From Nonlabens sp. MB-3u-79 (lineage in GTDB: Bacteria; Bacteroidota; Bacteroidia; Flavobacteriales; Flavobacteriaceae), in the NCBI RefSeq assembly GCF_002831625.1, contig NZ_CP025116.1, positions 558,001 through 622,000 of the forward strand: a stretch of 64,000 bases of DNA, read 5' to 3'. The notes below the pieces were generated by a model that saw nothing but the letters and a program-made list of their open reading frames with translations, did not search any database and was not told the DNA's origin. A program made the position numbers and the translations under genes. Positions 5,721 through 59,456 of the stretch are shown here, one piece after another (position 1 is the stretch's first letter; every line of letters starts with the position of its first letter).

Positions 5721-6170
5721 TTATCTGCCTTTACTATCCAATATAATAGTCACCGGACCGTCATTGATCAATTGTACTTTCATATCAGCTCCAAATATTC
5801 CAGCAGCTATTTCTTTGTTCAGATTTCGCGAAAGCGTGCTTATAAAAGCATCGTATAAAGGCACGGCTACCTCTGGTCTTGCAGCCTCTGTATAACTAGG
5901 ACGGTTGCCCTTTTTTGTGCTGGCAAATAAGGTGAATTGGGAAATGACTAAGACCTCTGCATCCATATCTTGAATGCTTAAATTCATCTTGTCGTTTGCA
6001 TCAGAGAAAATCCTCATGCCTACTGTTTTACCGACCAGCCAGTCGATGTCTTCTTGCCCGTCTTCATGGGTAATACCTAATAAAATAAGCAAGCCTTTTT
6101 TAATGGCTCCATGAACAGTTCCATCTATAGTTACACTTGCTTCACTAACTCTTTGAACGACTATTCTCAC
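5721..6170 (-). CDS. dtd: D-aminoacyl-tRNA deacylase
   Basis: 149 residues, the normal length for the family. It hydrolyses D-aminoacyl-tRNA (and Gly mischarged on tRNA-Ala), protecting cytoplasmic translation. Seen directly: the N-terminal MRIVVQRV, the SQFTLFA motif with the catalytic-site Thr, and the C-terminal NDGPVT motif holding the Gly-cisPro dipeptide that gives chiral selectivity. The start codon is GTG, overlapping the rsgA stop by four bases (GTGA), so the two genes are translationally coupled. A degenerate copy of the dispersed 16-bp palindrome lies inside the gene at 5821-5836, read as TLSRN. Confidence 0.96.
   Translation of the reverse strand: MRIVVQRVSEASVTIDGTVHGAIKKGLLILLGITHEDGQEDIDWLVGKTVGMRIFSDANDKMNLSIQDMDAEVLVISQFTLFASTKKGNRPSYTEAARPEVAVPLYDAFISTLSRNLNKEIAAGIFGADMKVQLINDGPVTIILDSKGR
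5821..5836. repeat. Degenerate copy of the 16-bp palindrome (2 mismatches)
   Basis: Reads AGATTTCGCGAAAGCG against the consensus CGCTTTCGCGAAAGCG; the 10-bp core TTTCGCGAAA is intact. It lies inside dtd and is translated in the third possible frame (Leu-Ser-Arg). Confidence 0.75.
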
Positions 6171-7174
6171 GGTTGTATTTGATGTTTATCCTGACGGTAA
6201 TTATCTTCATCACCTTTGATGATTTGTACATAACTCTCGTAACGGCTCACGACCATATTGCCATTTTCCACAGCCTCTTTTACCGCACATTTAGGTTCTT
6301 CTATATGCATGCAATTGTGAAATTTACATTGCTGCTTCAACTCGTAGATTTCAGGGAAATAATCACCTATTTCCTCTTTTTCCATATCTACTACCCCAAA
6401 GCCTTTGACACCTGGGGTGTCAATTAAACGTGCGCCAAAGTCCAAATCAAACATCTCTGCAAACGTAGTGGTATGTTGTCCCTGCTTGTGTTGTTCTGAG
6501 ATTTGTTTGGTTTTTAACTGCAATCCAGGCTGCACCGCATTAGCTAGGGTGCTTTTTCCAGCACCACTATGACCGGCAAACATGCTGGTCTTGCCTTTCA
6601 TCTTTTCTTTAATTAAATCGATGTTCTTACCCGTCTCAGCACTTATGGCTATACATTCATAACCTATAGATTTATAAAGGCTCATCAAGTACCTTACCTC
6701 ATCCAGCTCTGTCATGGTAAGTAATTCTTCTCCAGTTTCTGGGTCGATAATGACATCGCCTTGATCGTCGTTATAGGTGTCTACTTTGTTAAAAGCAAGT
6801 ACTACAGGAATATGATAGGCTTCAGCAGTGACTAGAACTCGGTCAATAAAAGAAGTAAACGTAGGCGGATTGTTTAAGGTCACCAGTAAGAATACCTGAT
6901 CTATATTTGCCGCAATAATATGTGTTTGCTTTGATAAATTCACCGACTTCCTGACGATGTAATTGTCACGTTCATGAATCACATTAATGATCCCTATTTC
7001 TTCATCTCCTTTTTTCTCAATTTCAAAATCTACTTGATCCCCTACAGCAACAGGATTGGTGCTTTTAATTCCTTGCAAACGGAATTTACCCTTTATCCTA
7101 CAGGAGTAAAATGCACCGTCAGTGCCTTTTACTTCATACCAACTTCCAGTAGATCTATATACGGTTCCAGTCAT
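6167..7174 (-). CDS. rsgA: Ribosome small subunit-dependent GTPase RsgA
   Basis: About 335 residues. A circularly permuted GTPase that acts in 30S subunit maturation. Order of parts: an OB-fold N-terminus (GSWYEVKG, RIKGKFRL), NKVD (G4), GHSGAGKST (P-loop), DTPGVKGFG (G3), then a C-terminal zinc knuckle with CKFHNCMH and a later Cys. A longer frame begins at a TTG at 7204, but that TTG is part of a -7 box (TAATTTTG, minus strand 7209 to 7202), and family members begin at MTGTVY, so I place the start at the ATG at 7174. Overlaps dtd by 4 nt. Confidence 0.95.
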   Translation of the reverse strand: MTGTVYRSTGSWYEVKGTDGAFYSCRIKGKFRLQGIKSTNPVAVGDQVDFEIEKKGDEEIGIINVIHERDNYIVRKSVNLSKQTHIIAANIDQVFLLVTLNNPPTFTSFIDRVLVTAEAYHIPVVLAFNKVDTYNDDQGDVIIDPETGEELLTMTELDEVRYLMSLYKSIGYECIAISAETGKNIDLIKEKMKGKTSMFAGHSGAGKSTLANAVQPGLQLKTKQISEQHKQGQHTTTFAEMFDLDFGARLIDTPGVKGFGVVDMEKEEIGDYFPEIYELKQQCKFHNCMHIEEPKCAVKEAVENGNMVVSRYESYVQIIKGDEDNYRQDKHQIQP

Positions 7175-7201
7175 TAATCGAGTTGTGTGTTCTTCATCAA
7201 A

Positions 7202-7286: not shown

Positions 7287-8369
7287 TTAATTATTAATCA
7301 CCTTTTCTTGGTGTATAATAGATTCTTGATGCACGGCTTTAAAAACCCGGAGAATAAACTCTTCACTTAATCCGTGTTCCTGTCCATCCAATATCATTTT
7401 ACCAAGAATCTCATTCCATCTTTTGGATTGCAAAATAGCTACGTTACGTTCTTTTTTCAAAGCACCAATCGCGTCTGCAGTTTTCATTCTCTTACCTAAT
7501 GTTTTAATAATAGAATTGTCGATCACATCTATTTGAGCCCTTAAAACACCTAATTTAGATTGGTATCCAGCTTCATCATCTTGCTCTTTTCTAATACGCA
7601 AATCTTTAAAAATTTGCATCAAGGCGGTTGGTGTTACTTGTTGAGCAGCATCGCTCCAAGCATTATCTGGGTCATAATGTGTTTCAATCATCAATCCGTC
7701 AAAGTTTAAGTCGAGAGCGGTTTGAGAAACTTCAAGAATCATATCTCTTTTTCCGGTAATATGTGAAGGATCACAAATCAATGGAATATCTGGATACTTC
7801 GTCTGGAAATCTACCGCTATTTGCCATTCTGGATTGTTGCGGTATTTTGATTTATCATAAGTAGAGAAGCCTCTATGGATCACTCCTAATTTCTTGATGT
7901 TTGCCGTATGCAAACGTTCCACAGCCCCTATCCACAAAGCCAGATCAGGATTTACTGGATTTTTTACCAGCACTACCTTATCCGTTCCTTGTAACGCATC
8001 AGCAATTTCTTGAACAATAAATGGACTAACAGTAGATCGAGCACCTATCCATAAAAGGTCTATGTCATGTTCTAAAGCCAACTCTACGTGAGCTCGGTTT
8101 GCTACTTCTGTGGCGGTTAAAAGACCTGTTTCAGCTTTTGCCTTTTGCAGCCATTTAAGACCCATAGCTCCTACTCCTTCAAAGTTTCCTGGGCGTGTTC
8201 TAGGCTTCCATATTCCTGCACGTAAGTAAGTAACGTCCGTATCTTTTAACTCATGTGCAATTTTAAGCACTTGGCCTTCTGTTTCTGCGCTGCATGGTCC
8301 AGCAATAACTATGGGATGCTCCAGTTGGTGAGCGTCTAACCAGTTTCTGAATTCCTTCTTATTTTCCAT
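7287..8369 (-). CDS. aroF: Bifunctional DAHP synthase / chorismate mutase
   Basis: 360 residues. The N-terminal ~265 residues form a DAHP synthase of the class that resembles KDO8P synthase (GPCSAETEGQ near the N-terminus, KPRTRPGNFEG, RGFSTYDKSKYRN, CDPSHITGKRD). It condenses phosphoenolpyruvate with erythrose 4-phosphate. The last ~85 residues are an AroQ-type chorismate mutase (LGVLRAQIDVIDN, KERNVAILQ). The fusion places the first and the branch-point steps of the pathway in one protein. A TTG six bases upstream would add two residues; the ATG at 8369 is preferred. It overlaps the tyrA stop by 11 nt and is the last gene of the operon, followed by a strong terminator. The symbol is by function; aroG or aroA are also used. 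Confidence 0.93.
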   Translation of the reverse strand: MENKKEFRNWLDAHQLEHPIVIAGPCSAETEGQVLKIAHELKDTDVTYLRAGIWKPRTRPGNFEGVGAMGLKWLQKAKAETGLLTATEVANRAHVELALEHDIDLLWIGARSTVSPFIVQEIADALQGTDKVVLVKNPVNPDLALWIGAVERLHTANIKKLGVIHRGFSTYDKSKYRNNPEWQIAVDFQTKYPDIPLICDPSHITGKRDMILEVSQTALDLNFDGLMIETHYDPDNAWSDAAQQVTPTALMQIFKDLRIRKEQDDEAGYQSKLGVLRAQIDVIDNSIIKTLGKRMKTADAIGALKKERNVAILQSKRWNEILGKMILDGQEHGLSEEFILRVFKAVHQESIIHQEKVINN

Positions 8370-9219
8370 TTTCAATTCCTTTCAGTATCGTTTTAATTCT
8401 ATTTGTTTGTTCCATATCATTAAATATGGCACTGTGATCGTCGTTTTTTACGCTTTCGCGAAAGCGAGACAAATTCTCAATATAGCCATCCAAACTAGCC
8501 AAAACATGCTCTTTATTCTGTGCAAATATAGGCGTCCACATGGCCGGCGAACTCTTTGCCAGTCGTACGGTACTTTCAAATCCGCTGCCGGCGAGATCAA
8601 AGATATCCCGCTCATTTTCTTCCTCCTGTATCACCGTCTTTCCCAACATAAAACTAGATATGTGAGATAAATGAGACACGTAAGCAATATGCCGGTCGTG
8701 AGCCGCAGGTGTCATGTACCGCACTCTCATTCCCAGATGATCAAAGATCAGTTTTGCAATTTCTTGCAATTTAGAAGAGGTTTTCTCTACCTCACATACA
8801 ATTATGGTTTTCTTGACAAATAAATTAGCTATTGCCGCATCTGGTCCAGAAAATTCGGTTCCCGCAATAGGGTGTGCTGCTAGAAACTGGCTTCTATTTT
8901 TATGAGTTGCTACGCCATCACAAATCGCTCCTTTAGTAGAGCCTACATCAATAACCAAGGCGTTTTCAAGAATTACATCCAGCACCTGAGGCAATACTTT
9001 TAAAGTTGCATCTACAGGAATAGAAACGATCACCAGATCTGCAATTTTTAAGTCTTCCAGTTTTGCGATTTGGTCGATAATTCCATTTTCTTTTGCTTTT
9101 TGGGCATGTAGTTGATCTTTATCAATGCCGTACAAAACAGCCTCTGGATAATGCCTGCGCAAATCCATAAGCATCGAGCCCCCTATCAACCCAGTTCCTA
9201 TTAGAAAGATGTTTTTCAT
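8359..9219 (-). CDS. tyrA: Prephenate dehydrogenase
   Basis: 286 residues from the ATG at 9219. The N-terminal Rossmann motif is GTGLIGGS; further motifs are VIDVGSTKG, HPIAGTE and TPAAHDRH, all typical of NAD(P)-dependent prephenate dehydrogenases that make 4-hydroxyphenylpyruvate for tyrosine. No ACT domain follows, so feedback control by tyrosine must come from elsewhere, perhaps the upstream attenuator. A longer frame begins 60 nt earlier but lies inside the aminotransferase and does not match the family. ATGA overlap with the preceding aminotransferase gene. It contains a perfect copy of the 16-bp palindrome, read as RFRES near the C-terminus. Confidence 0.93.
   Translation of the reverse strand: MKNIFLIGTGLIGGSMLMDLRRHYPEAVLYGIDKDQLHAQKAKENGIIDQIAKLEDLKIADLVIVSIPVDATLKVLPQVLDVILENALVIDVGSTKGAICDGVATHKNRSQFLAAHPIAGTEFSGPDAAIANLFVKKTIIVCEVEKTSSKLQEIAKLIFDHLGMRVRYMTPAAHDRHIAYVSHLSHISSFMLGKTVIQEEENERDIFDLAGSGFESTVRLAKSSPAMWTPIFAQNKEHVLASLDGYIENLSRFRESVKNDDHSAIFNDMEQTNRIKTILKGIENGK
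8451..8466. repeat. 16-bp palindrome, perfect copy (in tyrA)
   Basis: CGCTTTCGCGAAAGCG, translated on the minus strand as Arg-Phe-Arg-Glu-Ser near the tyrA C-terminus. Confidence 0.97.
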
Positions 9220-10379
9220 GCTTCTACTTTTTTGGAAAGCCTTTCTATCATTTCTTTTATTAGTTCTTCTTTTACACAAAGCGAAAAACGAACATAGCCT
9301 GTTCCATTACTTCCAAAAACACTCCCCGGAGCAATAAAAATATGGTGCTCATAAAGCAAGTGATCTACAAATGCCTTGTCGTCTTTTCCCCCATCTGGCA
9401 ACTTACACCAAACGAACAAGCCGCCAGATTGCACCTGAGGTTGCAAGTGTAAAGACATGGCCAGTTCCATAGTTAAAAGCCGACGCTTTTTGTAAATGTT
9501 ATTTTGGTTTTCTAGCCAGCTGTTATCTGTTTCTAAAGCAGCAATAGCCCCTTTCTGTACCCCGTAAAACATACCGCTATCCATATTGGTTTTTACTTTA
9601 AGAACCTCCTTTATCACCTCTGCTTTTCCAGCGAGCATTCCTAACCGCCAGCCTGCCATATTGTATGTTTTACTGATGGAATTGAGTTCTAAAGCTACCT
9701 CTTTTGCTCCTGTAACCTGGTGGATACTTATCTTATTTTCATAACCTACACAACTGTAGGGGTTATCATTCACAAGTAATATATGGTGCTTCTTTGCAAA
9801 CGCAATTAGACGTTCAAAAACCTGTATGGAACCCGCCGCACCTGTAGGCATATGTGGATAATTAGTCCACATAATTTTTACCTTGCTTAAATCTAATTGT
9901 TCTAAGGCCTCAAAATCAGGCATCCAATGATGCTCAGCTACAAGATCATAAGATATAGGAGTTGCTTCACATAATTTAGTCGCACTCGCATAAGTAGGAT
10001 ATCCAGGATTTGGAATCAACACCTCGTCTCCAGGATTTAAAAAAGCCATGGAAATATGAAGAATACCTTCTTTACTTCCCATTAAGGGTATGATTTCTGA
10101 ATCTGGATCTAAACCCACTTGGTATTGCTTTTTATAAAAGCTAGCCATGGCAATTCTCAATTCTGGCAATCCTAAATAACTTTGGTAACCGTGAGCGCTA
10201 GGGTCTTGCAAGGCAGCTGCAAGTGCTGGCACTACATGTTTAGGAGGCAATAAGTCTGGGTTGCCTATTCCAGCATTGATAATAGGTTTACCTGATAAGA
10301 GTAAATTTCTCACCTCACGCAACTTTGTTGCAAAGTAATATTCTTGAACGCTATCTAGTCGGTTAGCCGCTGGTATCAT
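9216..10379 (-). CDS. PLP-dependent class I/II aminotransferase, probably aromatic
   Basis: 387 residues. Fold-type I aminotransferase: IGNPD near the N-terminus, NPGYPTY, the NDNPYS motif, and the PLP-lysine motif SISKTYNMAGWRLGM. Its place between pheA and tyrA, with ATGA overlaps on both sides, suggests that it transaminates phenylpyruvate and 4-hydroxyphenylpyruvate (the last step to Phe and Tyr) or prephenate. The sequence alone does not separate aromatic from aspartate or LL-diaminopimelate-type specificity, so the substrate is inferred from context. Confidence 0.9.
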   Translation of the reverse strand: MIPAANRLDSVQEYYFATKLREVRNLLLSGKPIINAGIGNPDLLPPKHVVPALAAALQDPSAHGYQSYLGLPELRIAMASFYKKQYQVGLDPDSEIIPLMGSKEGILHISMAFLNPGDEVLIPNPGYPTYASATKLCEATPISYDLVAEHHWMPDFEALEQLDLSKVKIMWTNYPHMPTGAAGSIQVFERLIAFAKKHHILLVNDNPYSCVGYENKISIHQVTGAKEVALELNSISKTYNMAGWRLGMLAGKAEVIKEVLKVKTNMDSGMFYGVQKGAIAALETDNSWLENQNNIYKKRRLLTMELAMSLHLQPQVQSGGLFVWCKLPDGGKDDKAFVDHLLYEHHIFIAPGSVFGSNGTGYVRFSLCVKEELIKEMIERLSKKVEA

Positions 10380-11426: not shown

Positions 11427-11442
11427 CGCTTTCGCGAAAGCG
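11427..11442. repeat. 16-bp palindrome, perfect copy (intergenic)
   Basis: CGCTTTCGCGAAAGCG between the divergent pheA leader and gldA, just upstream of the gldA -33 element. Confidence 0.97.
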
Positions 11443-16562: not shown

Positions 16563-16578
16563 CGCTTTCGCGAAAGCA
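16563..16578. repeat. 16-bp palindrome, one mismatch (intergenic)
   Basis: CGCTTTCGCGAAAGCA, differing only in the last base, between the rpsO terminator and pnp. Confidence 0.9.
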
Positions 16579-23717: not shown

Positions 23718-23892
23718 TTCTTTATTTGGATCAAAGAAGCCTACCTATTCAAGCAGTTGCTTTTCTTCTATTAAATTACTATGAGCAAGCTGCTCTTTGC
23801 GGTTCTTCTCTCATAAGGCACTAATTCTACCATCTCGATAGATGTAAATGCGGTATAGGCTTGTTGTTGTTTCGCTTTCGCGAAAGCGGGAC
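23718..23892 (-). other. Short gap between HupE-type gene and deaminase
   Basis: Contains a palindrome copy and no convincing gene. A minus-strand frame through it (reading GPAFAKAKQQQ then IEMVELVPYERR) has no plausible start and overlaps the HupE-type gene, so I do not call it. Confidence 0.4.
23873..23888. repeat. 16-bp palindrome, perfect copy (intergenic)
   Basis: CGCTTTCGCGAAAGCG, four bases beyond the stop codon of the HupE/UreJ gene. Confidence 0.97.
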
Positions 23893-24483: not shown

Positions 24484-24689
24484 TTGTTAAGAATGCATTT
24501 AGGTATGATCAAAAATAAGCTTTAGACCCAAAGGATAAAAGCCTATTGTATATGAGTTTGCATAAAGAGCTCAAAATAAGTCTTTAAAAAGGATTATAAA
24601 GTCAACTTTAACCGATAAACTGTAATTATTATAGCTAAAAGTCAAGTTTATAAGGATATAGGAAGCATTAGACTAAAAAAAAATTATTT
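24484..24689. promoter_or_regulatory. Divergent promoter region with TATTTTTG box (24685-24692)
   Basis: Separates the HupE-type gene from the hybrid kinase. TATTTTTG at 24685-24692 matches the -7 consensus, but it includes the TTG that would start the kinase. Both readings cannot hold. Confidence 0.4.
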
Positions 24690-26948: not shown

Positions 26949-26956
26949 GCTCTTGT

Positions 26957-33026: not shown

Positions 33027-34103
33027 CTATCCGGTTATTTCTCCTCTTAACGAGGTCTCAAAGTAGGTTTTAAAACTTGATGGACTATCGGTGTGTTCCA
33101 ACAAGTACATCATTTTTGCCAGTGCCGCTTCGGTGGTAATGTCATTACCAGACACCAGCCCTATTTTCTGCAGCTGTATACTGGTTTCATATTTTCCCAT
33201 GGCCACGGCACCGCCTATACACTGCGTCACATTCACCATTCTGATACCGTTTTCTAAAGCCTCTTTTAAGATGTTTACAAACCATTTTTGAGTGGGTGCG
33301 TTACCACTTCCATAAGTTTCTAAAACAATACCCTTCAAAGATTTAATCTGGCATATGGCACGTACTACTTCCTCGGTAATTCCTGGGAAAAGTTTTAAAA
33401 CAACCACCTGATCCACAAGCTTAGGTCGGTACCTCATACGGTTAGCGTCTGTAACAGGACTTTTTCCTTGTTCCGCTTTCGCGAAAGCGGGATCCTCCAC
33501 TTGCCATTTCCACAACAAACTCTTATCTATATTTAAATGCACCCCACTAATAGCTAATGGAGGATAGTTAGGCGAGCTAAAGGCTTCAAAACGTTCGGCA
33601 TTCATCTTTGCCGTTCGGTTAGCCCGATACAATTGGTATTCAAAATAAATACAAACTTCCTTAATGATAGGCCCTTCCTGATCTTGCTCTACCGCAAGTT
33701 GCAGACTAGTGATCAGATTCTCCTTAGCATCAGTACGCAAATCACCTATAGGCAATTGGGAACCTGTAAGTATAATGGGCTTGGTAAGGTTCTCAAACAT
33801 AAAGCTGAGCGTGCTTCCTGTATAAGACATGGTATCACTACCGTGAAGAACCACAAAGCCGTGGTAATCATCGTAATTCTTATGGATGACATCACCTAGT
33901 TTGCGCCACTCTTCTAAATTCATGTCTGAAGAATCTATAGGATCGTCAAAGGAAAAAGTATCTATCTCACAATCCAGCTGTTTTATTTCTGGAATATGCA
34001 CCAGCAACTTTGAAAAGTCAAAAGCTCTTAAAGCTTTGGTCTCCGGATCTTTCATCATACCAATGGTTCCACCAGTATAGATCAATAGTATCTTAGGCTT
34101 CAT
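33027..34103 (-). CDS. ansA: Type I L-asparaginase
   Basis: 358 residues. Family signatures: IYTGGTIGM near the N-terminus with the nucleophilic Thr, and VVLHGSDTMSYTGS with the second Thr, Asp and the usual context; GSGNAPT near the C-terminal domain. No signal peptide, so cytoplasmic type I, which hydrolyses asparagine to aspartate. It overlaps the end of the acyltransferase gene by 11 nt. A palindrome copy inside the gene encodes AFAKA in a loop-like, charged stretch (VEDPAFAKAEQGKS). Confidence 0.95.
   Translation of the reverse strand: MKPKILLIYTGGTIGMMKDPETKALRAFDFSKLLVHIPEIKQLDCEIDTFSFDDPIDSSDMNLEEWRKLGDVIHKNYDDYHGFVVLHGSDTMSYTGSTLSFMFENLTKPIILTGSQLPIGDLRTDAKENLITSLQLAVEQDQEGPIIKEVCIYFEYQLYRANRTAKMNAERFEAFSSPNYPPLAISGVHLNIDKSLLWKWQVEDPAFAKAEQGKSPVTDANRMRYRPKLVDQVVVLKLFPGITEEVVRAICQIKSLKGIVLETYGSGNAPTQKWFVNILKEALENGIRMVNVTQCIGGAVAMGKYETSIQLQKIGLVSGNDITTEAALAKMMYLLEHTDSPSSFKTYFETSLRGEITG
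33474..33489. repeat. 16-bp palindrome, perfect copy (in ansA)
   Basis: CGCTTTCGCGAAAGCG; symmetric for 18 bp (one more C/G pair outside). Read as Ala-Phe-Ala-Lys-Ala. Confidence 0.97.
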
Positions 34104-38701: not shown

Positions 38702-39442
38702 ATGAGCCTATTCAAATTCAAAGAATTTACCGTAGCTCAAGATCGATGTGCTCAAAAAATAGGTACTGACGGTGTTTTATTAGGCGCCTGGGCAACCACT
38801 CATCAAGAACCTAGAACCATCCTTGATATAGGAAGTGGCACCGGAGTTATTTCTTTAATGCTCGCACAAAGATTTGCCAACTCCAATATAGAAGCACTAG
38901 AAATAGATGTAGATGCCTACGAGCAAGCAACAGAGAACTTTGAAAACAGTCCGTGGGGTGATCGCTTATTTTGTTTTCATGCGACATTCCAAGAGTTTTA
39001 TGAAGAAGTAGAAGAACGTTACGATCTCATTGTGAGCAACCCACCCTTTTATGATGCCGTCAGTGTCAAGAATACTGGACAGATAGAGGACAAACGCCAG
39101 CAGGCAAGATTTGATGACGCCTTACCTTTTGAAGAACTGGTATATGGGGTTTATCAATTACTGGAAAAGGATGGAACTTTTGCCTGCATTATTCCTAAAG
39201 ATCGAGAAAAACATTTTTTAGAAATAACTTCTCATTTTCAGTTAGAACCAGTGCACACGACATATGTTAAAGGCACTGAAGACAGTAAAGTAAAAAGATG
39301 TTTGATGGAATTTCGCTTTCGCGAAAGCGTGCAAAACAAGCCTGCCATTGCTACAATAGAAACTCTGGTCATTGAAAAATCAAGACACGATTATACTGAA
39401 GATTACATAGGTCTTACAAAAGACTTTTACTTAAAAATGTAA
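38702..39442 (+). CDS. trmN6: tRNA1(Val) (adenine(37)-N6)-methyltransferase type protein
   Basis: 246 residues. Class I SAM methyltransferase: DIGSGTGVISLMLA (motif I), and VSNPPFYDA (the NPPF/Y motif of N6-adenine enzymes). QDRCAQKIGTDGVLLGAW at the N-terminus is typical of the YfiC/TrmN6 group. A palindrome copy in the last beta-strand region encodes RFRES. 22 nt after rimM. Confidence 0.9.
   Translation: MSLFKFKEFTVAQDRCAQKIGTDGVLLGAWATTHQEPRTILDIGSGTGVISLMLAQRFANSNIEALEIDVDAYEQATENFENSPWGDRLFCFHATFQEFYEEVEERYDLIVSNPPFYDAVSVKNTGQIEDKRQQARFDDALPFEELVYGVYQLLEKDGTFACIIPKDREKHFLEITSHFQLEPVHTTYVKGTEDSKVKRCLMEFRFRESVQNKPAIATIETLVIEKSRHDYTEDYIGLTKDFYLKM
39314..39329. repeat. 16-bp palindrome, perfect copy (in trmN6)
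   Basis: CGCTTTCGCGAAAGCG, read as Arg-Phe-Arg-Glu-Ser. Confidence 0.97.
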
Positions 39443-44728: not shown

Positions 44729-46129
44729 TTAATTAAACCGTTTATTAATCCAGCTTGCTATAAGCTGCAAGGTCTCTGGATCAAAGGTTTCTTCTATCTG
44801 ATCGTATTCTACACCACTTCCAGTTGTTGCATTTTGAAATAAATGGTTGAGCCCTGGTAGTGTTTTTAAGGTGACGTCTTTGTTTCCCGCTTTCGCGAAA
44901 GCGGATTTCATACCAGATAAGTTGATTTCAGGAATCACTTGATAATCTAAAGAGCCGTTGATTGCCAAAACCGGGCAGCTTACTTTTTCCAAATTAATAG
45001 CAGGATCATATGTTAAAAAGAAACGCATCCAGTTGCCGGAAAATTGCTTGCTTACCTCTGTTATATATTGTTCTGAATATTTAGACTGTAACGCATCAGG
45101 CGCTTTAGTTGCTGCAGCAGTCATCATTATTTTAAGTTCTTGTTGAAGCGCTTGGTTTGTAGCGTTTTTAGACGCTAAAACCTTTTGGAATAATTGATCC
45201 ATTAAGTTCATTTCAAAATTCAGCTCCTTTTCTGGTGCGCCTTGAAGCGCTGCTCCTTTTCTCATTTGTGGTAAGAGTACTTGATCCCCTCGCAAACCTG
45301 TTCCTGCAAGTGAAACAAAGAAGGCCACGTCTTTTTTATTGTTTGCAATCACTATAGGTGCGATCAAACCACCTTCACTATGCCCTATAAGTCCTATTTG
45401 TTTTTTATTGATATCCTTACGAGTCTTGAGATAGTTCACCGCCGCTTCTACGTCGGTAGCAAAATCGGCACTAGTAGCATCTTTCTGTATTCCTTCAGAT
45501 GCTGCTACACCACGGTCATCGTATCTCAACACGGCTATTCCGTTTCTAGTTAAGTAATCTGCAAGTACTAAAAAGGGTTTGTGGCCTAATAACTCCTCAT
45601 TTCTATCTTGAGGGCCAGAGCCAGAAATCAGAATCGCCACCGGCGGATTCTTAGCTTCTGAAGGCAATGTTAATGTACCTGCTAATTTGATGTTGTTTGC
45701 TTTTGGATTGGTAAATAAGACTTCTTCTACCTTATAAGGGAAAGGGGCTTTAGGCTCTTGAGGCCTGTTGGGTTTTACTTCTACGTAGTCTTTCTTCTCT
45801 AAATTCATCTCTGCAGAAAAACCTCCTTGAGCAAAAGTACCCATGATTTTCCCTCCTTTAAGTTCGCCTTCATATTTAATTTTATAGGCATTGAGCACTA
45901 GGGTGATTTTACTTCCTTCTATAGTTGCGGCATCCATAGGTAGGAAAGTTTTAGATTGTGAAGGGCTTTGCATTTTTGCCGTATACACATCATCTGTATT
46001 TGAAATTTCAAATACGAGTGGCATTCCTTGAATTCCTCCGGTCCAAGAACCTTCAAATTCTTGTGCATTTGATCCTAAGGAATTTAGTAGAACAATGATC
46101 CAAAAAGTGATGTTGCGTGTTATTTTCAT
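44729..46129 (-). CDS. Secreted alpha/beta hydrolase
   Basis: 466 residues with signal peptide (LLNSLGSNAQ), an N-terminal beta-barrel-like domain (~25-115), and an alpha/beta hydrolase domain. Catalytic triad candidates: Ser in IGHSEGGLI, Asp in NGSLDYQV, His in GLNHLFQ. An ISGSGPQDRNE oxyanion loop is present. Likely a periplasmic esterase or peptidase; the substrate is not known. A palindrome copy encodes AFAKA between the Asp and His motifs. Confidence 0.9.
   Translation of the reverse strand: MKITRNITFWIIVLLNSLGSNAQEFEGSWTGGIQGMPLVFEISNTDDVYTAKMQSPSQSKTFLPMDAATIEGSKITLVLNAYKIKYEGELKGGKIMGTFAQGGFSAEMNLEKKDYVEVKPNRPQEPKAPFPYKVEEVLFTNPKANNIKLAGTLTLPSEAKNPPVAILISGSGPQDRNEELLGHKPFLVLADYLTRNGIAVLRYDDRGVAASEGIQKDATSADFATDVEAAVNYLKTRKDINKKQIGLIGHSEGGLIAPIVIANNKKDVAFFVSLAGTGLRGDQVLLPQMRKGAALQGAPEKELNFEMNLMDQLFQKVLASKNATNQALQQELKIMMTAAATKAPDALQSKYSEQYITEVSKQFSGNWMRFFLTYDPAINLEKVSCPVLAINGSLDYQVIPEINLSGMKSAFAKAGNKDVTLKTLPGLNHLFQNATTGSGVEYDQIEETFDPETLQLIASWINKRFN
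44888..44903. repeat. 16-bp palindrome, perfect copy (in hydrolase)
   Basis: CGCTTTCGCGAAAGCG, read as Ala-Phe-Ala-Lys-Ala. Confidence 0.97.
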
Positions 46130-47727: not shown

Positions 47728-49527
47728 ATGGAATCACCACCTTTAGAGGTTCAAATCAAAACCTTGCCGCTTTCTCCGGGAGTCTATTTGTATTTTGACA
47801 AAAAAGACAAGTTGCTCTATGTAGGAAAAGCAAAAAAGCTCAAAAATCGAGTTTCGTCTTACTTTACAAAAAGCCACGACAGTTTCCGCATCCGAACGAT
47901 GGTGAAAAACATCCACCGTATTGAACATATAGTGGTAGAAACAGAAACTGATGCGCTGCTATTAGAAAACAGCTTGATTAAAAGTCGCAACCCGCGGTAC
48001 AATATCATGCTGCGCGATGATAAAACTTACCCCTGGCTGGTGATTAAAAAAGAACGTTTCCCACGGGTTTTTCTAACTCGTAAAATGATCAAAGACGGCA
48101 GTGAATATTTCGGCCCTTATACCAGTGTTAGAACAGTAAGAACTTTGCTGGAATTAGTAAAAACGCTGTATCCCATACGCACTTGTAATTACGATTTACA
48201 ACAAGACAAAATTAATGAGGGCAAGTTTAAATTGTGCCTAGAATACCATATAGGTAATTGTAAAGGTCCTTGCACTGGGTTGCAACATGAAGTAGCATAC
48301 AACCGCAGTATAGAAGCCATAAGAGGAATTGTAAAAGGGGATTTTAAGGAAGCCGTTTCTTACTTTACAGAGTTGATGCAAGCCCATGCAGTCAACATGG
48401 AGTTTGAAGAAGCACAGCAATTAAAAGAGAAACTAGAAATCCTTACGAGATACCAAGCCAAGTCTACCGTAGTCAACCCTAATATTTCTAACGTAGATAT
48501 CTTTACAATAGTAAGTGATGAAGCGGCTGGTTATGTGAATTATCTTCAAATCAATCATGGAGCAATCACACGCTCGCATACCATGGAGCTAAAGAAACAA
48601 CTGGATGAAGATGACAAGCAATTGCTAGAACTCGCCATTGTAGAATTGCGCAATAGATTTGATTCCCAATCAACAGAGGTTTACACGCAATTTGAGGTAG
48701 AACTAGGAGAAAATCTCAAAGTAACCGTACCTAAACTAGGAGACAAAAAACGAGTGGTTGATTTATCAGAACGCAATGCTAAATTCTTTAGACAGGAACA
48801 GTTCAAAACTATTAAAATTGTAGATCCAGACCGACATACCAACAGGCTTATGATCCAGATGAAAGCCGACTTACACCTGGATGAAGAACCTAGACATCTG
48901 GAGTGTTTTGACAATTCAAATATTCAAGGAACCAACCCTGTTGCGGCATGTGTAGTGTTCAAAAATGGTAAACCCAGTAAAAAAGAGTACCGAAATTTCA
49001 ATATAAAAACAGTTGAAGGACCAGATGATTTTGCAAGTATGGAAGAGGTCGTTTACAGAAGGTACCGCAGGTTGCTAGAAGAAGACCAGCCCTTACCTCA
49101 ACTGATTATTGTTGATGGTGGGAAAGGACAACTTTCCAGTGGCGTTACTGCCTTAGAACGACTGGGATTAAGAGGTAGAATACCTATAATAGGAATTGCA
49201 AAAAGACTGGAAGAGCTTTTTTATCCTAACGATCCTGTACCTTTATACCTAGATAAACGTTCTGAAACCTTAAAAGTCATTCAGCAAATGCGTAATGAAG
49301 CGCACCGTTTTGGAATCACACATCATAGAAACAAACGCAGTAAACAAGCTATTGAAACCGAACTAGACGAGATTCCTGGAATAGGAGAAAAGACGGTGGT
49401 AGATTTACTCAAGTACTTTAGAAGCGTTAAACGCGTTAAGGTAGCAACTAAAAAAGAGCTGGCTGAAGTTGTAGGGGTTTCTAAAGCTCAAAAAATTATA
49501 GATTTTTATAAAGATGAAGAAGAGTAG
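47728..49527 (+). CDS. uvrC: Excinuclease ABC subunit C
   Basis: 599 residues, full length. GIY-YIG nuclease (about 14-92: GVYLYFDKKDKLLYVGKAK), a UVR motif (~200-235), the RNase H-like second nuclease (HLECFDNSNIQGT, LIIVDGGKGQLS) and C-terminal helix-hairpin-helix (ELDEIPGIGEKT). Nucleotide excision repair. The end overlaps the patatin gene by 14 nt. Confidence 0.97.
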   Translation: MESPPLEVQIKTLPLSPGVYLYFDKKDKLLYVGKAKKLKNRVSSYFTKSHDSFRIRTMVKNIHRIEHIVVETETDALLLENSLIKSRNPRYNIMLRDDKTYPWLVIKKERFPRVFLTRKMIKDGSEYFGPYTSVRTVRTLLELVKTLYPIRTCNYDLQQDKINEGKFKLCLEYHIGNCKGPCTGLQHEVAYNRSIEAIRGIVKGDFKEAVSYFTELMQAHAVNMEFEEAQQLKEKLEILTRYQAKSTVVNPNISNVDIFTIVSDEAAGYVNYLQINHGAITRSHTMELKKQLDEDDKQLLELAIVELRNRFDSQSTEVYTQFEVELGENLKVTVPKLGDKKRVVDLSERNAKFFRQEQFKTIKIVDPDRHTNRLMIQMKADLHLDEEPRHLECFDNSNIQGTNPVAACVVFKNGKPSKKEYRNFNIKTVEGPDDFASMEEVVYRRYRRLLEEDQPLPQLIIVDGGKGQLSSGVTALERLGLRGRIPIIGIAKRLEELFYPNDPVPLYLDKRSETLKVIQQMRNEAHRFGITHHRNKRSKQAIETELDEIPGIGEKTVVDLLKYFRSVKRVKVATKKELAEVVGVSKAQKIIDFYKDEEE

Positions 49528-51751
49528 GTTCCTTTTGTTTTTAATCGTTCTCGCTTTCGCGAAAGCGAATCATCTTCAAGCGCAAGAGAACGAACCTACC
49601 TCTAGACCAAAAATAGGACTGGTGCTTTCTGGTGGTGGTGCAAAAGGACTGGCTCATATAGGAACTTTGAAAATTATTGATTCGCTTGGGATAAAGGTGG
49701 ACTACGTGGCAGGAACGAGCATGGGAGCGATCGTAGGATCTCTTTATGCCTCTGGATATACAGGCAAACAGATCGATTCTATTTTTAATATTATTGATTT
49801 TGACAAGATCATTTCTGACGATATACCCCGTAATTCAAAATCCTATTATGAACGCAGAAGCAATGAACGCTATGCGGTAACTTTGCCTTTTAAAGATTTT
49901 AAAGTATTGCTCCCCTCCTCTTTGAGTAAAGGCCAAAATATCTATAACTTGCTTTCAAGATTGCTGTCTCATGTTAAAGATACAGATGATTTTAGCAAAC
50001 TACCTATTCCTTTTTTATGTATCGCTACAGACATTACTACTGGTGAAGAAGTAGTACTAGATAGAGGGTATTTACCAAAAGCTGTAAATGCTAGTGGTGC
50101 GCTACCTTCCCTTTTTGCACCTGTAGAAATAGACGGCCAGCTGCTTATAGACGGAGGTGTTACCGACAATTATCCTATAGACAAATTGAAAGAACGCGGC
50201 ATGGACATTATTATAGGTGTAGATGTGCAGGACGATTTAAAATCACTACAGGAATTGCGTAGTGCACTAGATATACTTTCGCAGATCAATAATTTCCGTA
50301 CTATTAATGACATGAAGGCAAAAGCGCCACAAACAGATGTCTATATCACCCCTGATATAGCAGCCTATACTGTAGTCTCTTTTGACCAAGGAAGAGAGAT
50401 AATTCAAAAAGGAGAAGAAGCGGCTAGAGAACATGCAGCCCAACTTAAAAGCTTAGTCTTTGATAACTATTCCAGACCAGAATTAATAGTCAAAACTGTG
50501 GACAGTATTTATCTCAACAAGATCAATGTAAAGGGAAATAATAATTATACCAGAGCTTTTATTGTAGGTAGGTTTAAAGTGAAAACACCTGGAATGGTGG
50601 CTTATAAAGATTTGAGTAGTGGTTTCAATAATTTACAAGCAACTGATAATTTTACTAAAATCAATTATGAAATCATCGCAGACGATGGTGGCTCCATATT
50701 AGAAATAGATTTAGTTGAAAGCGATGTACGTAATTATTTACGACTGGGGCTTCACTATGATGAACTGTTGCGCAGTGCGGCACTTATCAATCTAGCTCGG
50801 AAAAATGTTTTTTTTGATAACGATATTATATCGGTGGATGCCATCATAGGAGATAATCTCAGGTACAATTTTGATTATTATATCGATAAAGGCCGTTACT
50901 GGTCCATAGGCTTGCACAGTGAATTTGTAAAATTTGAACAAGACGTAAGTGCCGCTTTTGTAGAAGATGTCATCAACTTGGCACCGCTAAGTGTGAACAG
51001 CCTTAGGTTACAATATAGAGACTGGACACAACAAGGCTTTTTACAGACAAGGATTAATGAATCGGTGAATTTTGTTGCAGGAGTTGAAGTAAAGTCGCTC
51101 CATGTTTTTACAGAAACCTTGATCACCGGTAACCCTACTAACGACGCAACCGATTTCTCAGACGGGAGTATGGGAAGTGTTTATGGTAAGATACTCGTCG
51201 ACTCTTATGACAATGCCCTTTTTCCCTCTTCTGGATGGAAGGTAGAAGGTGATTTTCACTTATATGCATTCAATACCGAATTTGGGGAGCGGTTTAAAGA
51301 ATTCTCTATCGCCCAAGTAGAAGTAGGTCATGCAGAGCGTTTTGGCAATTTTACCCTTCGGGGAGCTGCGCATATAGGAATTACAATAGGTGATACGGAC
51401 AACTCTGCAATGGATTTTTTCTTAGGAGGATATGGCTCCCGCAGGATCAATAATCTTATTCCGTTTTATGGATATGATTTTATAAGTATTAGTGGCGGCT
51501 CCATGATTAAGGTGCTTTTTGAAGCAGATTATGAAGTATTCAAGAAGAATCATGTGGTGTTCAGTGCTAATTTTGCAAACACACAAGACAATTTATTTGA
51601 ACAATCTGACTGGTTCAGTAATGCAAGGTATACTGGTTATGCCATTGGTTATGGTATAGAAACCTTTTTAGGTCCGTTAGAATTAAAATACAGCTTCTCT
51701 CCACAACAGAAAGACGGACAGGTATTTGTGAATATCGGTTTTAAATTTTGA
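49514..51751 (+). CDS. Patatin-like phospholipase fused to an Omp85-type barrel
   Basis: 745 residues. Signal peptide (about 1-24), patatin domain (~35-225: GLVLSGGGAKGLAH oxyanion loop, nucleophile in VAGTSMGAIVG, Asp in LLIDGGVTDN), a POTRA-like region (~330-400: INVKGNNNYTRA) and a C-terminal beta-barrel of the surface-antigen/Omp85 class ending in aromatic F. This layout is that of PlpD-like type Vd proteins, which place a lipase at the surface. A palindrome copy lies inside the signal peptide (LAFAKAN). Confidence 0.93.
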   Translation: MKKSRFLLFLIVLAFAKANHLQAQENEPTSRPKIGLVLSGGGAKGLAHIGTLKIIDSLGIKVDYVAGTSMGAIVGSLYASGYTGKQIDSIFNIIDFDKIISDDIPRNSKSYYERRSNERYAVTLPFKDFKVLLPSSLSKGQNIYNLLSRLLSHVKDTDDFSKLPIPFLCIATDITTGEEVVLDRGYLPKAVNASGALPSLFAPVEIDGQLLIDGGVTDNYPIDKLKERGMDIIIGVDVQDDLKSLQELRSALDILSQINNFRTINDMKAKAPQTDVYITPDIAAYTVVSFDQGREIIQKGEEAAREHAAQLKSLVFDNYSRPELIVKTVDSIYLNKINVKGNNNYTRAFIVGRFKVKTPGMVAYKDLSSGFNNLQATDNFTKINYEIIADDGGSILEIDLVESDVRNYLRLGLHYDELLRSAALINLARKNVFFDNDIISVDAIIGDNLRYNFDYYIDKGRYWSIGLHSEFVKFEQDVSAAFVEDVINLAPLSVNSLRLQYRDWTQQGFLQTRINESVNFVAGVEVKSLHVFTETLITGNPTNDATDFSDGSMGSVYGKILVDSYDNALFPSSGWKVEGDFHLYAFNTEFGERFKEFSIAQVEVGHAERFGNFTLRGAAHIGITIGDTDNSAMDFFLGGYGSRRINNLIPFYGYDFISISGGSMIKVLFEADYEVFKKNHVVFSANFANTQDNLFEQSDWFSNARYTGYAIGYGIETFLGPLELKYSFSPQQKDGQVFVNIGFKF
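49552..49567. repeat. 16-bp palindrome, perfect copy (in patatin signal peptide)
   Basis: CGCTTTCGCGAAAGCG, read as Ala-Phe-Ala-Lys-Ala at residues ~14-18, i.e. within the exported protein's signal peptide. Confidence 0.97.
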
Positions 51752-54520: not shown

Positions 54521-54521
54521 T

Positions 54522-55535: not shown

Positions 55536-56513
55536 ATGAATCCCATGTCCGAAGAAATCAGCCCAGAGATTGCCCAACGCATTAAATTGCTAGAGGATAA
55601 GTTTAAAAATTCTGGCCAGGACATGCTTTCATACTTAGATGGACTGCTCTACGATACCTATACCACTTACTGGGATTATATTAGATTAGACACCTTGCTA
55701 AGTCTGCAATTACCCTATACAGAGTTTCCTGACGAGATGATATTTATAAGCTATCATCAGATTACAGAATTGTATTTCAAATTGATCATTCATGAACAAA
55801 TGCAGATTATAGAAAGCACAACGCTTACTGCTGCGTTCTTTGAAGAGAAAATAAAACGTATCAATAGGTATTATACCGTTTTAATCAACTCCTTTGAAGT
55901 GATGATTCAAGGAATGGAACGCGACCAATTTCTTAAATTCAGAATGTCTTTACTTCCTGCAAGTGGATTCCAGAGCGCTCAGTTTAGAATGATAGAATTC
56001 TATAGCAGTGATTTAATTAATTTAGTTCATCCTTCTGTTAGGTCTCGCTTTCGCGAAAGCGAAAAAAACCACACACAAAAAGAATTATTTGAAAATATCT
56101 ACTGGAAAAAAGGAGGTATTGATATGAATACTGGAGAAAAAACGCTCACACTAAAGCAGTTTGAAAAGCGTTACACTCCTAGATTTTTAAGAATTACAAA
56201 AGAAGTAGAACACACTAATTTAAATCAGCGCTATCTTGCATTACCAAAAGAAGAACAAACACAAGAGCTTCAAGATGCGTTGCGTAGATTAGACCAAAAC
56301 GCAAACATCAACTGGTTGCTCATGCATATGGGAGCCGCACATAGGTATTTGCGTAAAGAGGGGGAAGCAGTAAAAGCAACTGGAGGAACCAACTGGAAAG
56401 AATTTCTACCACCTAGCTTTCAAAAAATCTCTTTCTTCCCATCGCTATGGACGCAAGAGGAGCACGATAACTGGGGAAAACAATGGGTAGATCACGCATT
56501 AAACACAAAATAA
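55536..56513 (+). CDS. kynA: Tryptophan 2,3-dioxygenase
   Basis: 325 residues. Haem dioxygenase of the TDO family: SLQLPYTEFPDEMIFISYHQITELYFKL region (in parts; the His is the substrate-site base), SGFQSAQFRMIE, and C-terminal MHMGAAHRYL and GTNWKEFLPP. First step of kynurenine-type tryptophan breakdown. A palindrome copy encodes RFRES in a variable loop (VRSRFRESEKNH). ATG at 55536 or 55545. Followed with no gap by the M23 gene. Confidence 0.94.
   Translation: MNPMSEEISPEIAQRIKLLEDKFKNSGQDMLSYLDGLLYDTYTTYWDYIRLDTLLSLQLPYTEFPDEMIFISYHQITELYFKLIIHEQMQIIESTTLTAAFFEEKIKRINRYYTVLINSFEVMIQGMERDQFLKFRMSLLPASGFQSAQFRMIEFYSSDLINLVHPSVRSRFRESEKNHTQKELFENIYWKKGGIDMNTGEKTLTLKQFEKRYTPRFLRITKEVEHTNLNQRYLALPKEEQTQELQDALRRLDQNANINWLLMHMGAAHRYLRKEGEAVKATGGTNWKEFLPPSFQKISFFPSLWTQEEHDNWGKQWVDHALNTK
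56046..56061. repeat. 16-bp palindrome, perfect copy (in kynA)
   Basis: CGCTTTCGCGAAAGCG, read as Arg-Phe-Arg-Glu-Ser. Confidence 0.97.
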
Positions 56514-57767: not shown

Positions 57768-57824
57768 ACCATTCCCTCACCACCATCTGTATTACTCCAA
57801 GATCTTTTTAGACCCCCTAGTATC

Positions 57825-59456
57825 ATGAAAAACATCAACCCTACTTCTACCGCGGCATGGAAAGCGCTCGCAGATCATTATAAAACAGCAAAAAATTTCA
57901 ACCTAAAAGAAGCCTTTCAAAATAATCCTGATCGTGCAAAAGAGCTGACCATAAAAGAAGGAGATTTTTATGTAGACCTTTCTAAAAACTTGATTCTTAA
58001 AGAAACACAACAAAAATTAGTGGACCTCGCTAACGAATGTCATCTTACAGAAGCCATAGAATCGTATTTTAATGGCGAGAAAATAAATGTGACTGAAAAT
58101 CGTGCGGTTTTACATACTGCATTACGCACCAATGACATCAGCACTCAAGTAGGTGAAAACGTAACATCAGCGATTGAAAGCAAGAAGAAAATGTTTGCTT
58201 TTGTAGATGCCGTAAATAACGGAGAGATTACTGCTGCAAACGGAAAGAAGTTTGATACCGTTGTAAATATAGGAATAGGCGGTAGCGATCTGGGACCTGA
58301 GATGATCTATGAAGCCATGCAGGCTTATAAAAATGAACTTAGCCTTCATTTTGTCTCTAACATAGAAGGAGATCACGTGGAAGAAACCTTAAAAAAGATC
58401 CAACCAGAAACAACATTATTTGTGATCGTTTCTAAGTCTTTTGGAACACAAGAAACACTTACTAACTCAACAACTATTAGAAATTGGTTTACTAATAAAG
58501 TAGGTGCCTCAGCGATAGCAAAGCACTTTATTGCAGTAAGTAGCAATGTACAACGCGCCGTGGATTTTGGAATTGATAAAGAAAATATCTTCCCTATGTT
58601 TGATTGGGTAGGTGGCCGTTTTTCTTTGTGGAGTACAGTAGGTATGTCTGTTGCCTTAGGAATAGGCTCTAAAAATTTTCAAGGTTTGCTTGATGGTGCG
58701 CATGATATGGACACCCATTTCAGGAATACCTCTTTTGATAAAAACATTCCTGTCCAGTTAGCCTTACTCACGATATGGTACAACAACTTTTTTAAAGCGC
58801 AAAGTGAAGCTGTAATACCCTACACTCAATACCTTCATAGACTTCCAGCTTATCTACAGCAAGCCATTATGGAAAGTAACGGTAAGAGTACAGACCGCAA
58901 TGGAAATCGCGTGGATTATGAAACTGGGAACATCGTATGGGGGGAACCAGGTACCAACTCACAACATGCCTTTTTTCAATTGATACATCAAGGAACTAAA
59001 TTGATTCCTGCTCAATTTATCGCTTTCGCGAAAACGAAATACAACCACCCAGACCATCAAAACAAACTTATGGCAAATTTCTTTGCACAAACAGAAGCTT
59101 TGATGAATGGGAAAACAAGTCAAGAAGCCGCTCAAGATTTGGCCTCCTCAGGAAAATCACAAACCGAAATCGACCAACTGGTTCCTTTTAAGGTCTTTGA
59201 AGGAAATAAACCTACGACTACCATATTAGTAGACGAGCTTACTCCACAAAGTTTAGGTAAGCTAGTAGCTATGTATGAACACAAAATATTTGTAGAAGGA
59301 GTGATCTGGAACATCTACAGTTATGATCAATGGGGAGTAGAATTAGGGAAGGTCTTAGCTGATGCTATTCTGACCGATATTGAAGACTCCAAATCTGACA
59401 AACACGACGCCAGTACGAGTGCTCTTTTACAAAAATATTTTACTCTTAATAATTAA
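57825..59456 (+). CDS. pgi: Glucose-6-phosphate isomerase
   Basis: 543 residues. Motifs: ENRAVLHTALR, NIGIGGSDLGPEM, SKSFGTQETLTN, DWVGGRFSLWSTVG, MESNGKS and GTNSQHAFFQLIHQGT. Glycolysis/gluconeogenesis, cytoplasmic. A palindrome copy with one mismatch encodes FAKT in a segment where E. coli Pgi, from memory, has a different sequence of equal length. Confidence 0.97.
   Translation: MKNINPTSTAAWKALADHYKTAKNFNLKEAFQNNPDRAKELTIKEGDFYVDLSKNLILKETQQKLVDLANECHLTEAIESYFNGEKINVTENRAVLHTALRTNDISTQVGENVTSAIESKKKMFAFVDAVNNGEITAANGKKFDTVVNIGIGGSDLGPEMIYEAMQAYKNELSLHFVSNIEGDHVEETLKKIQPETTLFVIVSKSFGTQETLTNSTTIRNWFTNKVGASAIAKHFIAVSSNVQRAVDFGIDKENIFPMFDWVGGRFSLWSTVGMSVALGIGSKNFQGLLDGAHDMDTHFRNTSFDKNIPVQLALLTIWYNNFFKAQSEAVIPYTQYLHRLPAYLQQAIMESNGKSTDRNGNRVDYETGNIVWGEPGTNSQHAFFQLIHQGTKLIPAQFIAFAKTKYNHPDHQNKLMANFFAQTEALMNGKTSQEAAQDLASSGKSQTEIDQLVPFKVFEGNKPTTTILVDELTPQSLGKLVAMYEHKIFVEGVIWNIYSYDQWGVELGKVLADAILTDIEDSKSDKHDASTSALLQKYFTLNN
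59021..59036. repeat. 16-bp palindrome, one mismatch (in pgi)
   Basis: CGCTTTCGCGAAAACG; the single change is in the right arm. Read as Ala-Phe-Ala-Lys-Thr. Confidence 0.9.

Follow-up and report, generated by a model that had tools for sequence, protein, structure and literature searches.

The genome of Nonlabens sp. MB-3u-79 (G000; 3.18 Mb) carries hundreds of copies of a palindrome that we interpret, with a confidence a little short of even, as the core of a roughly 40–50-bp symmetric site, bound as double-stranded DNA by a putative dimeric protein and, much like an uptake sequence, marking the lineage's own DNA as self. The exact 16-mer occurs 427 times in this genome and 601 times when one mismatch is allowed; the reversed control gave no copy in the same genome, and 30 palindromes of matching composition, made by shuffling, had neither exact nor one-mismatch hits in an 864-kb sample. 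The initial annotation of a 64-kb stretch of this chromosome (the window) had named a chance-level count, or copies confined to that stretch, as results that would speak against the motif; the genome-wide count and the abundance of the motif across the genus show neither. Among the matches listed for open-licence PMC full texts (queried with the core word, TTTCGCGAAA, TTCGCGAA and related topics), the motif is not described.

Within the window, the palindrome is matched 11 times at up to two mismatches, eight times perfectly, twice with one mismatch and once with two (Table 1), and 100 dinucleotide shuffles of the window returned 0.01 matches on average and one at most. All 11 positions of the initial annotation were recovered, together with its division into eight genic and three intergenic copies and its use of every reading frame: the genic copies cover all three phases, being read once as TLSRNL, three times as RFRES, three times as AFAKA and once as AFAKT. 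That the DNA itself, not the protein, is conserved was likewise borne out. The gene names dtd, tyrA, ansA, hydrolase, patatin, kynA and pgi hold, while trmN6, a name from the initial annotation, corresponds to a protein with a small methyltransferase domain. The stretch between 23.9 and 33.5 kb, a putative accessory island, contains a hybrid histidine kinase and a DAO-family oxidoreductase.

Table 1. Copies of the palindrome in the 64-kb window, with the genes that hold them and the retention of the copies elsewhere.
Position	Copy	Read as	Location	Gene strand	Copy in other genomes
5821..5836	weak, two mismatches	TLSRNL	within dtd (5721-6170)	-	
8451..8466	perfect	RFRESV	within prephenate dehydrogenase gene (8359-9279)	-	
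11427..11442	perfect		intergenic		
16563..16578	one mismatch (outermost base; 14-bp core intact)		intergenic		
23873..23888	perfect		intergenic; bounds the widest gap of the window on the left		
33474..33489	perfect	PAFAKA	within asparaginase gene (33027-34103)	-	
39314..39329	perfect	RFRESV	within small-methyltransferase-domain gene (38702-39442)	+	core exact in G202; ≤1 mismatch in 8/11 aligned Nonlabens loci
44888..44903	perfect	SAFAKA	within S33-type hydrolase gene (44729-46129)	-	≤2 mismatches in 3/11 aligned loci
49552..49567	perfect	LAFAKA	start of patatin/Omp85 gene (49514-51751)	+	12/14 core bases shared with G202
56046..56061	perfect	RFRESE	within tryptophan dioxygenase gene (55536-56513)	+	≤1 mismatch in 10/11 aligned Nonlabens loci
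59021..59036	one mismatch	IAFAKT	within pgi (PGI; 57825-59456)	+	≤1 mismatch in 9/11 aligned Nonlabens loci

The unit is larger than the 16-bp palindrome first described. A near-invariant 14-bp core, GCTTTCGCGAAAGC, lies inside symmetric, T/G-rich and C-poor arms of ~13–18 bp, which gives a whole unit of roughly 40–50 bp. Near-perfect copies predominate among the sites of an 800-kb sample, in which 138 14-mers are exact, 22 have one mismatch and 13 have two. The conserved information amounts to ~36 bits, a figure inflated by the choice of sites for their closeness to the consensus, compared with ~12 bits needed to locate that many sites; such a surplus would be expected for a tag selected against foreign DNA. 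The 5′ arms are rich in G and T and poor in C, and a T recurs with a period of three bases (−4, −7, −10 and −13), intergenic sites included. Mean scores of the left and right arms are equal, and the letters of the two arms do not covary, the observed complementarity departing from the expected by no more than 0.06 at any of 18 positions. Given this lack of covariation, a symmetric protein probably recognises the site in its double-stranded DNA form, and an RNA hairpin is probably not what is read. The arm bases next to the core vary between lineages, and such lineage-specific variants are comparable to the dialects of uptake sequences.

The sites occupy permissive places. Although 120 of 172 lie inside genes, in every reading frame, the 52 intergenic ones (30%) compare with 11.7% of bases, a 2.6-fold enrichment when intergenic DNA is delimited by our own ORF caller. 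Twenty-four of the genic copies fall in the first tenth of their gene, 16 of them read as AFAKA. Convergent gene pairs hold 10 of the 50 classifiable intergenic sites and 17% of intergenic bases, which indicates little preference. The even spacing reported for the window holds beyond it, with a median of 4.0 kb, a dispersion of 0.34 and a coefficient of variation (CV) of 0.48 against 0.87 expected; of 131 gaps analysed, 3 are below 1 kb, where 26 are expected. The same evenness is found in G202 (CV 0.57 against 0.98 expected), and the CV in G232 is 0.47 (a value given without a null comparison). Two 20-kb host pieces hold a single site each, and in one of them, L167, an aconitase gene is present among four genes searched for.

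At the level of sequence, the sites are conserved beyond background: in the comparison of G202 with G000, exact retention was seen for nine of 15 alignable orthologous sites but for only 18 of 150 random words. Collinearity of the two genomes proved to be a wrong assumption, so few sites are comparable (13 of 165 in G000 and 15 of 92 in G202), and the two directions of comparison have site pairs in common and do not count as independent. Three of the six unretained places match just 4–9 of the 14 core bases within flanks that are 79–84% identical, and these resemble the recombination-borne sites described in PMC2397512. Gapped differences were found at none of the 15 places in one comparison, and one of the 13 sites aligned to a gap in the other. 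Site positions turn over inside the genus Nonlabens.

The motif is restricted by lineage among the genomes sampled. Each of the 23 Nonlabens genomes searched, G000 included, holds 180–737 copies, and hundreds of copies occur in only three of 237 Flavobacteriaceae genera, Nonlabens and two others; Mesonia and Gillisia, with one genome each, have none. In a uvrC tree (one gene, midpoint-rooted, without support values shown), the motif-rich genomes G190 and G232 fall together beside Gillisia, Salinimicrobium and Mesonia, outside Nonlabens. Nine of 11 Nonlabens loci and none of 69 others passed a screen of 80 named loci for repeated palindromes (mostly ~20 kb each; G+C of at least 30% and at least 3–4 copies, so that low-density dialects would escape it), and other dialect palindromes in relatives are thus not visible at that resolution. 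Three of the loci outside Nonlabens (L111, L113 and L125) showed repeated non-palindromic 11-mers. Copies with proper arms are also found on phage contigs, probably of motif-bearing hosts, and within islands of other genera. The motif may mark DNA that formerly resided in these hosts, for example the metal-efflux islands of other genera.

In the reading that we favour, one dedicated dimeric protein would bind the symmetric double-stranded site, and site-bearing fragments would be preferred either by the flavobacterial transformation machine, through one of its surface or periplasmic components, or by a protein at work once the DNA has just entered, so that fragments from relatives would be imported and recombined preferentially. 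This recombination would spread and repair the sites through molecular drive plus selection, keeping the copies near the perfect consensus, with about one site per useful fragment length (4–5 kb) as the outcome. Both the dimeric state of the binder and the role in uptake and recombination are what we infer from these features. Uptake sequences are significantly evenly spaced according to Karlin et al., as cited in a passage of PMC1939737, and PMC2397512 describes uptake sites whose spacing matches conversion fragments and which lie in permissive core places. Riemerella columbina, also of the Flavobacteriaceae, favours its own DNA, and the possible signals listed in the relevant part of PMC7965970 are only A/T-rich k-mers. 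Counting against an uptake role would be the palindromicity and the very even spacing, since the uptake sequences known are non-palindromic, with a spacing less even than chromosome-compaction sites should have, as stated in part of PMC1939737. The phage copies, moreover, carry proper arms, which an uptake tag would not need, and competence of Nonlabens is itself putative. Each of 14 genomes tested, among them G000, encodes DUF5689, a domain of a competence-essential protein of R. anatipestifer; the putative orthology to the Riemerella protein is judged from the shared domain. DUF5689 does not discriminate motif-rich from motif-free genomes among these 14, without any grouping by motif content, and was rejected as the specific reader; no receptor was found. 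With rather less than even confidence, we tentatively propose that the motif belongs to a class of site not described before, one that would identify a genome as self along its whole length. Each tag would be ~40 bp of symmetric double-stranded DNA whose arms carry a mark with a period of three bases; three flavobacterial genera would keep one every 4–5 kb, phages would have adopted it, and its putative dedicated reader would gate uptake or sort self DNA inside the cell.

Could the motif instead organise the chromosome, with an abundant nucleoid or condensin-accessory protein sitting on the palindrome every 4–5 kb and shaping or marking the DNA? We regard this as unlikely. The very even density along the whole chromosome (4.3, 4.2, 4.0 and 3.5 sites per 20 kb by quarter, with a dispersion of 0.34) and the symmetry of the arms speak for it, as do the copies in phages able to reside in the chromosome (contig L176 has an integrase match) and the finding that the Nonlabens phages P12024S and P12024L have no site at up to two core mismatches in 30 kb each. 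The idea is weakened by the per-quarter means of G000, in which no clear origin/terminus gradient is seen; the skew switches sign at about 1.05 and about 2.75 Mb, and the two poorest pieces lie near 2.75 Mb. SlmA, Noc and MatP organise chromosomes through far fewer sites. The restriction to three sampled genera, the turnover of positions within the genus and the conservation of ~36 bits when ~12 would do also argue against an organiser.

Improbable, in our judgement, is a two-way Chi-like site of recombination or nuclease control, at which a break-processing enzyme would halt from either side and the G/T-rich 5′ arms would favour loading of RecA, a protein that prefers GT-rich triplets. The composition of these arms, with its recurring T in intergenic sites too, is consistent with such a role, and so are the arms of the phage sites. 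The core and arms together, however, far exceed known Chi sites, which are asymmetric and 5–8 bases long, and the motif is missing from the sampled neighbour genera. Its density of one per 4–5 kb is near that of E. coli Chi, for which a passage of PMC1939737 gives 1008 copies in ~4.64 Mb.

A HIP1-like sequence, kept alongside an orphan DNA methyltransferase whose target would be TCGCGA or a sub-site, is very improbable. The Nonlabens motif is palindromic, highly iterated and present in all frames, and HIP1 has been linked to methylases (part of PMC4390886). However, G000 with its 427 sites has no match at E ≤ 0.001 to four DNA-methylase families (PF01555, PF00145, PF02384 and PF02086), which makes methylation of this kind unlikely, and none of the four is common to all nine motif-rich genomes searched; a methylase would also need no 14 invariant bases plus arms. 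At the level of these families and genomes, the methylase link was rejected. The initial interpretation thus survives in part, in that the keeping of the DNA, the even spacing and the likeness to uptake or chromosome-organising sites are supported, and its branch of HIP1 and TCGCGA methylation is not. Least probable of all, and largely refuted, is an RNA-level element (a terminator or stability hairpin) or a transposed REP-like repeat: the 16-mer could form a short hairpin, judging from its letters, and 30% of sites are intergenic, but most sites are genic, the absence of covariation and excess complementarity between arms and the slight preference for convergent pairs led us to reject a hairpin or terminator, and the scarcity of gapped differences led us to reject insertion of a repeat unit as the main route.

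Should the motif prove to be an uptake sequence, no earlier specific one is known from Bacteroidota so far as literature searches show, and it would be palindromic, unlike those known; the flavobacterial transformation machine is distinctive, and the self-DNA preference seen in R. columbina lacks an established sequence basis. Should it instead be a self tag read inside the cell, or a nucleoid site, it would amount to ~500 evenly spaced places of protein binding for which no binder has been described. The 23 Nonlabens genomes, the motif-free neighbouring genera and the phages with and without the motif form a comparative system that is already at hand.

Among known systems, the DUS of Neisseriaceae and the USS of Pasteurellaceae share with the Nonlabens motif hundreds of near-perfect, evenly spaced copies, enrichment in intergenic or permissive places, use of all frames, conservation at orthologous sites and lineage-specific flank variants. 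The Nonlabens motif differs from them in being palindromic and without orientation, in its longer core and long symmetric arms, in its occurrence in phages and in its lower density, one per 4–5 kb compared with ~1 kb for Haemophilus uptake sites (PMC7811141). For its family, the possible uptake words in the literature found are only A/T-rich k-mers, and an uptake role would be assigned by analogy. HIP1 of cyanobacteria (GCGATCGC) is likewise a highly iterated palindrome found in genes and spacers across a lineage, but measures 8 bp against 14–16 bp and reaches 1–2 copies per kb according to part of PMC4390886, against ~0.2 per kb here; none of the four methylase families searched is matched in G000. 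Chi has a comparable density and is also G/T-rich 5′ of its core, whereas it is short, asymmetric and one-directional and the Nonlabens motif is symmetric and much longer. The parS, Noc, SBS and matS sites are palindromic chromosomal sites of the dimer type. The Nonlabens motif is palindromic as well, but in contrast to them it is present in hundreds of evenly spaced copies with no clear origin/terminus pattern, and is abundant in just three of the genera sampled.

The single chromosome of Nonlabens sp. MB-3u-79 (G000) carries 427 exact copies of the 16-bp palindrome and 601 with up to one mismatch, and the backward control pattern does not occur in it. Within the window lie the 11 sites of the initial annotation and no others, eight genic and three intergenic, and the names given to the motif-bearing genes hold. 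The uvrC gene of this genome has its nearest named loci in N. xylanidelens and an uncultured Nonlabens (93% identity).

In an 864-kb sample of G000 (the window and 40 stretches of 20 kb) we found 114 exact, 48 one-mismatch and 10 two-mismatch 16-mers, while thirty shuffled palindromes gave no exact and no one-mismatch match. The outermost bases account for 32 of the 48 one-mismatch copies. The invariant unit is a 14-bp core, with 138 exact, 22 one-mismatch and 13 two-mismatch copies in the 800-kb sample. Flanking this core on both sides, the 5′ arm of either strand is rich in T and G and poor in C over about 13-18 bases, with T at positions -4, -7, -10 and -13, also when intergenic sites are taken alone. 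The arm pattern is seen again in G232, a motif-rich genome outside the genus, and in the congener G205; it is fainter in the other such outsider, G190 (45% G+C), where -7 is not T-rich. The left and right arms show no excess complementarity at any of 18 positions and their scores are not correlated; therefore something symmetric probably recognises the site as a DNA duplex, and not as a stem. Core and arms together hold about 36 bits, a value somewhat inflated by picking sites with up to two mismatches, compared to about 12 needed to address as many sites.

Each of the 23 Nonlabens genomes searched, G000 among them, contains 180-737 exact copies. In a sample of 199 genomes of the family, which includes two Nonlabens (427 and 495 copies), 26 have any exact 16-mer, and G190 (153) is the only one outside Nonlabens with more than 12. 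Among 397 family genomes from 237 genera, the 14-bp core occurs in hundreds only in four Nonlabens (563-664), G190 (408) and G232 (857); the next highest counts are 19, 17 and 16. In a class sample of 395 genomes, none outside Flavobacteriaceae had more than four copies, and one Mesonia and one Gillisia genome had none even with one mismatch allowed, a search in which the backward control gave two matches in G190 and none in the remaining genomes. Because the uvrC tree pairs G190 with G232 near Gillisia, Salinimicrobium and Mesonia, away from Nonlabens, the distribution implies either two gains of the motif or several losses.

The even spacing noted initially in the window extends over the chromosome. 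Forty 20-kb pieces of G000 have a mean of 4.03 sites and a variance of 1.36 (index of dispersion 0.34, lower-tail p 3e-5), and 131 spacings have a median of 4.0 kb and a CV of 0.48 (0.87 expected), with three gaps below 1 kb where 26 are expected. The first 100 exact copies are also more even than expected (CV 0.68 vs. 0.99; 0 of 20,000 simulations as low). In the congener G202 the CV is 0.57 (0.98 expected) and in G232 it is 0.47, a figure without null comparison; the small samples from G190 (10 pieces, dispersion 0.81) and G205 (4 pieces, 0.84) are less regular. No clear gradient runs from origin to terminus, both defined by skew (quarter means 4.3, 4.2, 4.0 and 3.5). The two poorest 20-kb pieces, with one site each, lie near the terminus; one of them, L167, is not plainly foreign, judged by the four of its proteins searched, an aconitase among them.

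Sites prefer permissive places: 52 of 172 are intergenic, compared to 11.7% of bases by our own ORF caller (p 6e-11), and gene orientation matters little. Genic sites split 27, 22 and 71 over the three phases, in agreement with the proposed use of all frames. The first tenth of the gene holds 24 of 120 genic sites, which read LAFAKA (8), SAFAKA (3) and FAFAKA (3) among others.

Conservation at orthologous positions, proposed initially as a check, is seen within Nonlabens. Across 11 aligned Nonlabens loci around uvrC, the sites in kynA (10 of 11) and pgi (9 of 11), both counted with up to one mismatch, are near-universal, and further sites are present in some loci and absent from others. In 400 kb of G202, 15 of 92 sites are alignable to the G000 sample and nine of these are exact there, compared to 18 of 150 random 14-mers (Fisher p 6e-5). 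In the reverse comparison, which has site pairs in common with the first, 13 of 165 sites are alignable; of 11 exact ones, eight are exact in G202, and one of the 13 falls on a gap.

The 16-mer also occurs in 41 stretches from 30 viral contigs (counted by hand), whose hosts we infer. Three of the loci searched are unmistakably of phage origin (terminase, portal, major head protein, tail sheath, integrase); L187 matches Winogradskyella phage Peternella_1 weakly at the DNA level (7% of the query), and the head proteins of L201 and Cellulophaga phage phi39:1 share 45% identity. At 45 distinct phage sites with the core, a count including near-duplicates from related phages, arm scores exceed the 95th percentile of random host positions at 34 of 37 sites in contigs of up to 47% G+C and are -6 or lower at all eight in contigs of at least 48%, the score counting the outermost 16-mer base that most sites share because the 16-mer located them. 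The isolated Nonlabens phages P12024S and P12024L, each covered over 30 kb of about 35.7 kb, have a single three-mismatch core match each, at chance level.

Stray copies in other genera were read in 20 pieces from 14 further family genomes, and many sit within metal-efflux genes. Ten proteins searched comprise three RND pump or outer-membrane efflux proteins, two P-type ATPases (one with heavy-metal domains), one Fur-like protein, two DUF4138 proteins, a conjugative-transposon family, and two without meaningful family. Sites 933 and 2446 bases apart are found in more than one genus. Because the arms at these copies score 9.4 on average (41 distinct sites, five below zero), the islands are consistent with an origin in motif-rich hosts. 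Site distribution has been put to a similar use in Neisseriaceae, where, in the part of PMC7371117 cited, atypical uptake-sequence distributions revealed conjugative elements.

Locations of the window and of side features
Feature	Location	Observation
Window	G000, 558001-622000	Chromosome of 3,184,776 bases
Widest site-free gap	Window, 23889-33473	Hybrid histidine kinase, DAO-family oxidoreductase
Site-poor piece L147	G000:C1:2560001-2580000	
Site-poor piece L167	G000:C1:2640001-2660000	Four proteins searched: PAS histidine kinase, beta-lactamase-fold, DUF418, aconitase
Phage methyltransferase	L195:7410-8936	Motif-bearing contig; protein matches DNA methyltransferase PHROGs
Phage motif with arms	L176, L187, L191, L201, L208, other IMG/VR loci	Fixed coding positions
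GVRFRE reading	L184, L185, L188, L189, L192, L198, L201, L210	Common to diverged phages
Metal-efflux/Fur-type islands	L031-L044 (G101, G078, G087, G012, G111, G076, G144, G073)	Conserved motif positions at distances of 933 and 2446 bases
DUF5689 gene	L254-L263 (Nonlabens and relatives)	Strongly diverged across Nonlabens in two groups (G010, G205; G000, G202, G220, G221, G222); core 15-60 bases 3′ of stop codon in G205, G222, G202, G010

What reads these sites? We tentatively propose an uptake-like self-recognition sequence. The sites are near-perfect, evenly spaced, conserved, set in permissive positions and richer in information than needed, which together is, in our analysis, the pattern of uptake sequences. 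The text cited from PMC8459023 calls the transformation machinery of R. anatipestifer unique, with several essential proteins mainly in Flavobacteriaceae, and own DNA is preferred by Riemerella columbina, A/T-rich k-mers being the only candidate signals given in the cited part of that report (PMC7965970). All 14 genomes tested, G000 included, encode DUF5689, a domain found in one of the competence-essential proteins, and it does not track motif content among them. Against uptake, the palindromic form, the very even spacing and the phage copies favour an intracellular reader. Very even spacing is, in the part of PMC1939737 cited, expected of compaction sites rather than uptake sequences, and a chromosome-organising site is a rather unlikely but serious alternative; a two-way Chi-like site appears improbable. 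Methylases of the four families searched, PF01555, PF00145, PF02384 and PF02086, do not account for the motif, since none matches in G000 at E≤0.001 and none is present in all nine motif-rich genomes. Unlike G000, all six congeners searched possess one or more of these families.

A description of the motif was not found in the open-licence PMC literature among the matches listed. In kind it is a recognition word dispersed over the genome, and no known family fits every tested feature. Of the likenesses drawn initially, that to HIP1 and methylation is very improbable by the four families searched, the chromosome-organising site is retained as a rival, and the resemblance to uptake sequences is tentatively favoured.
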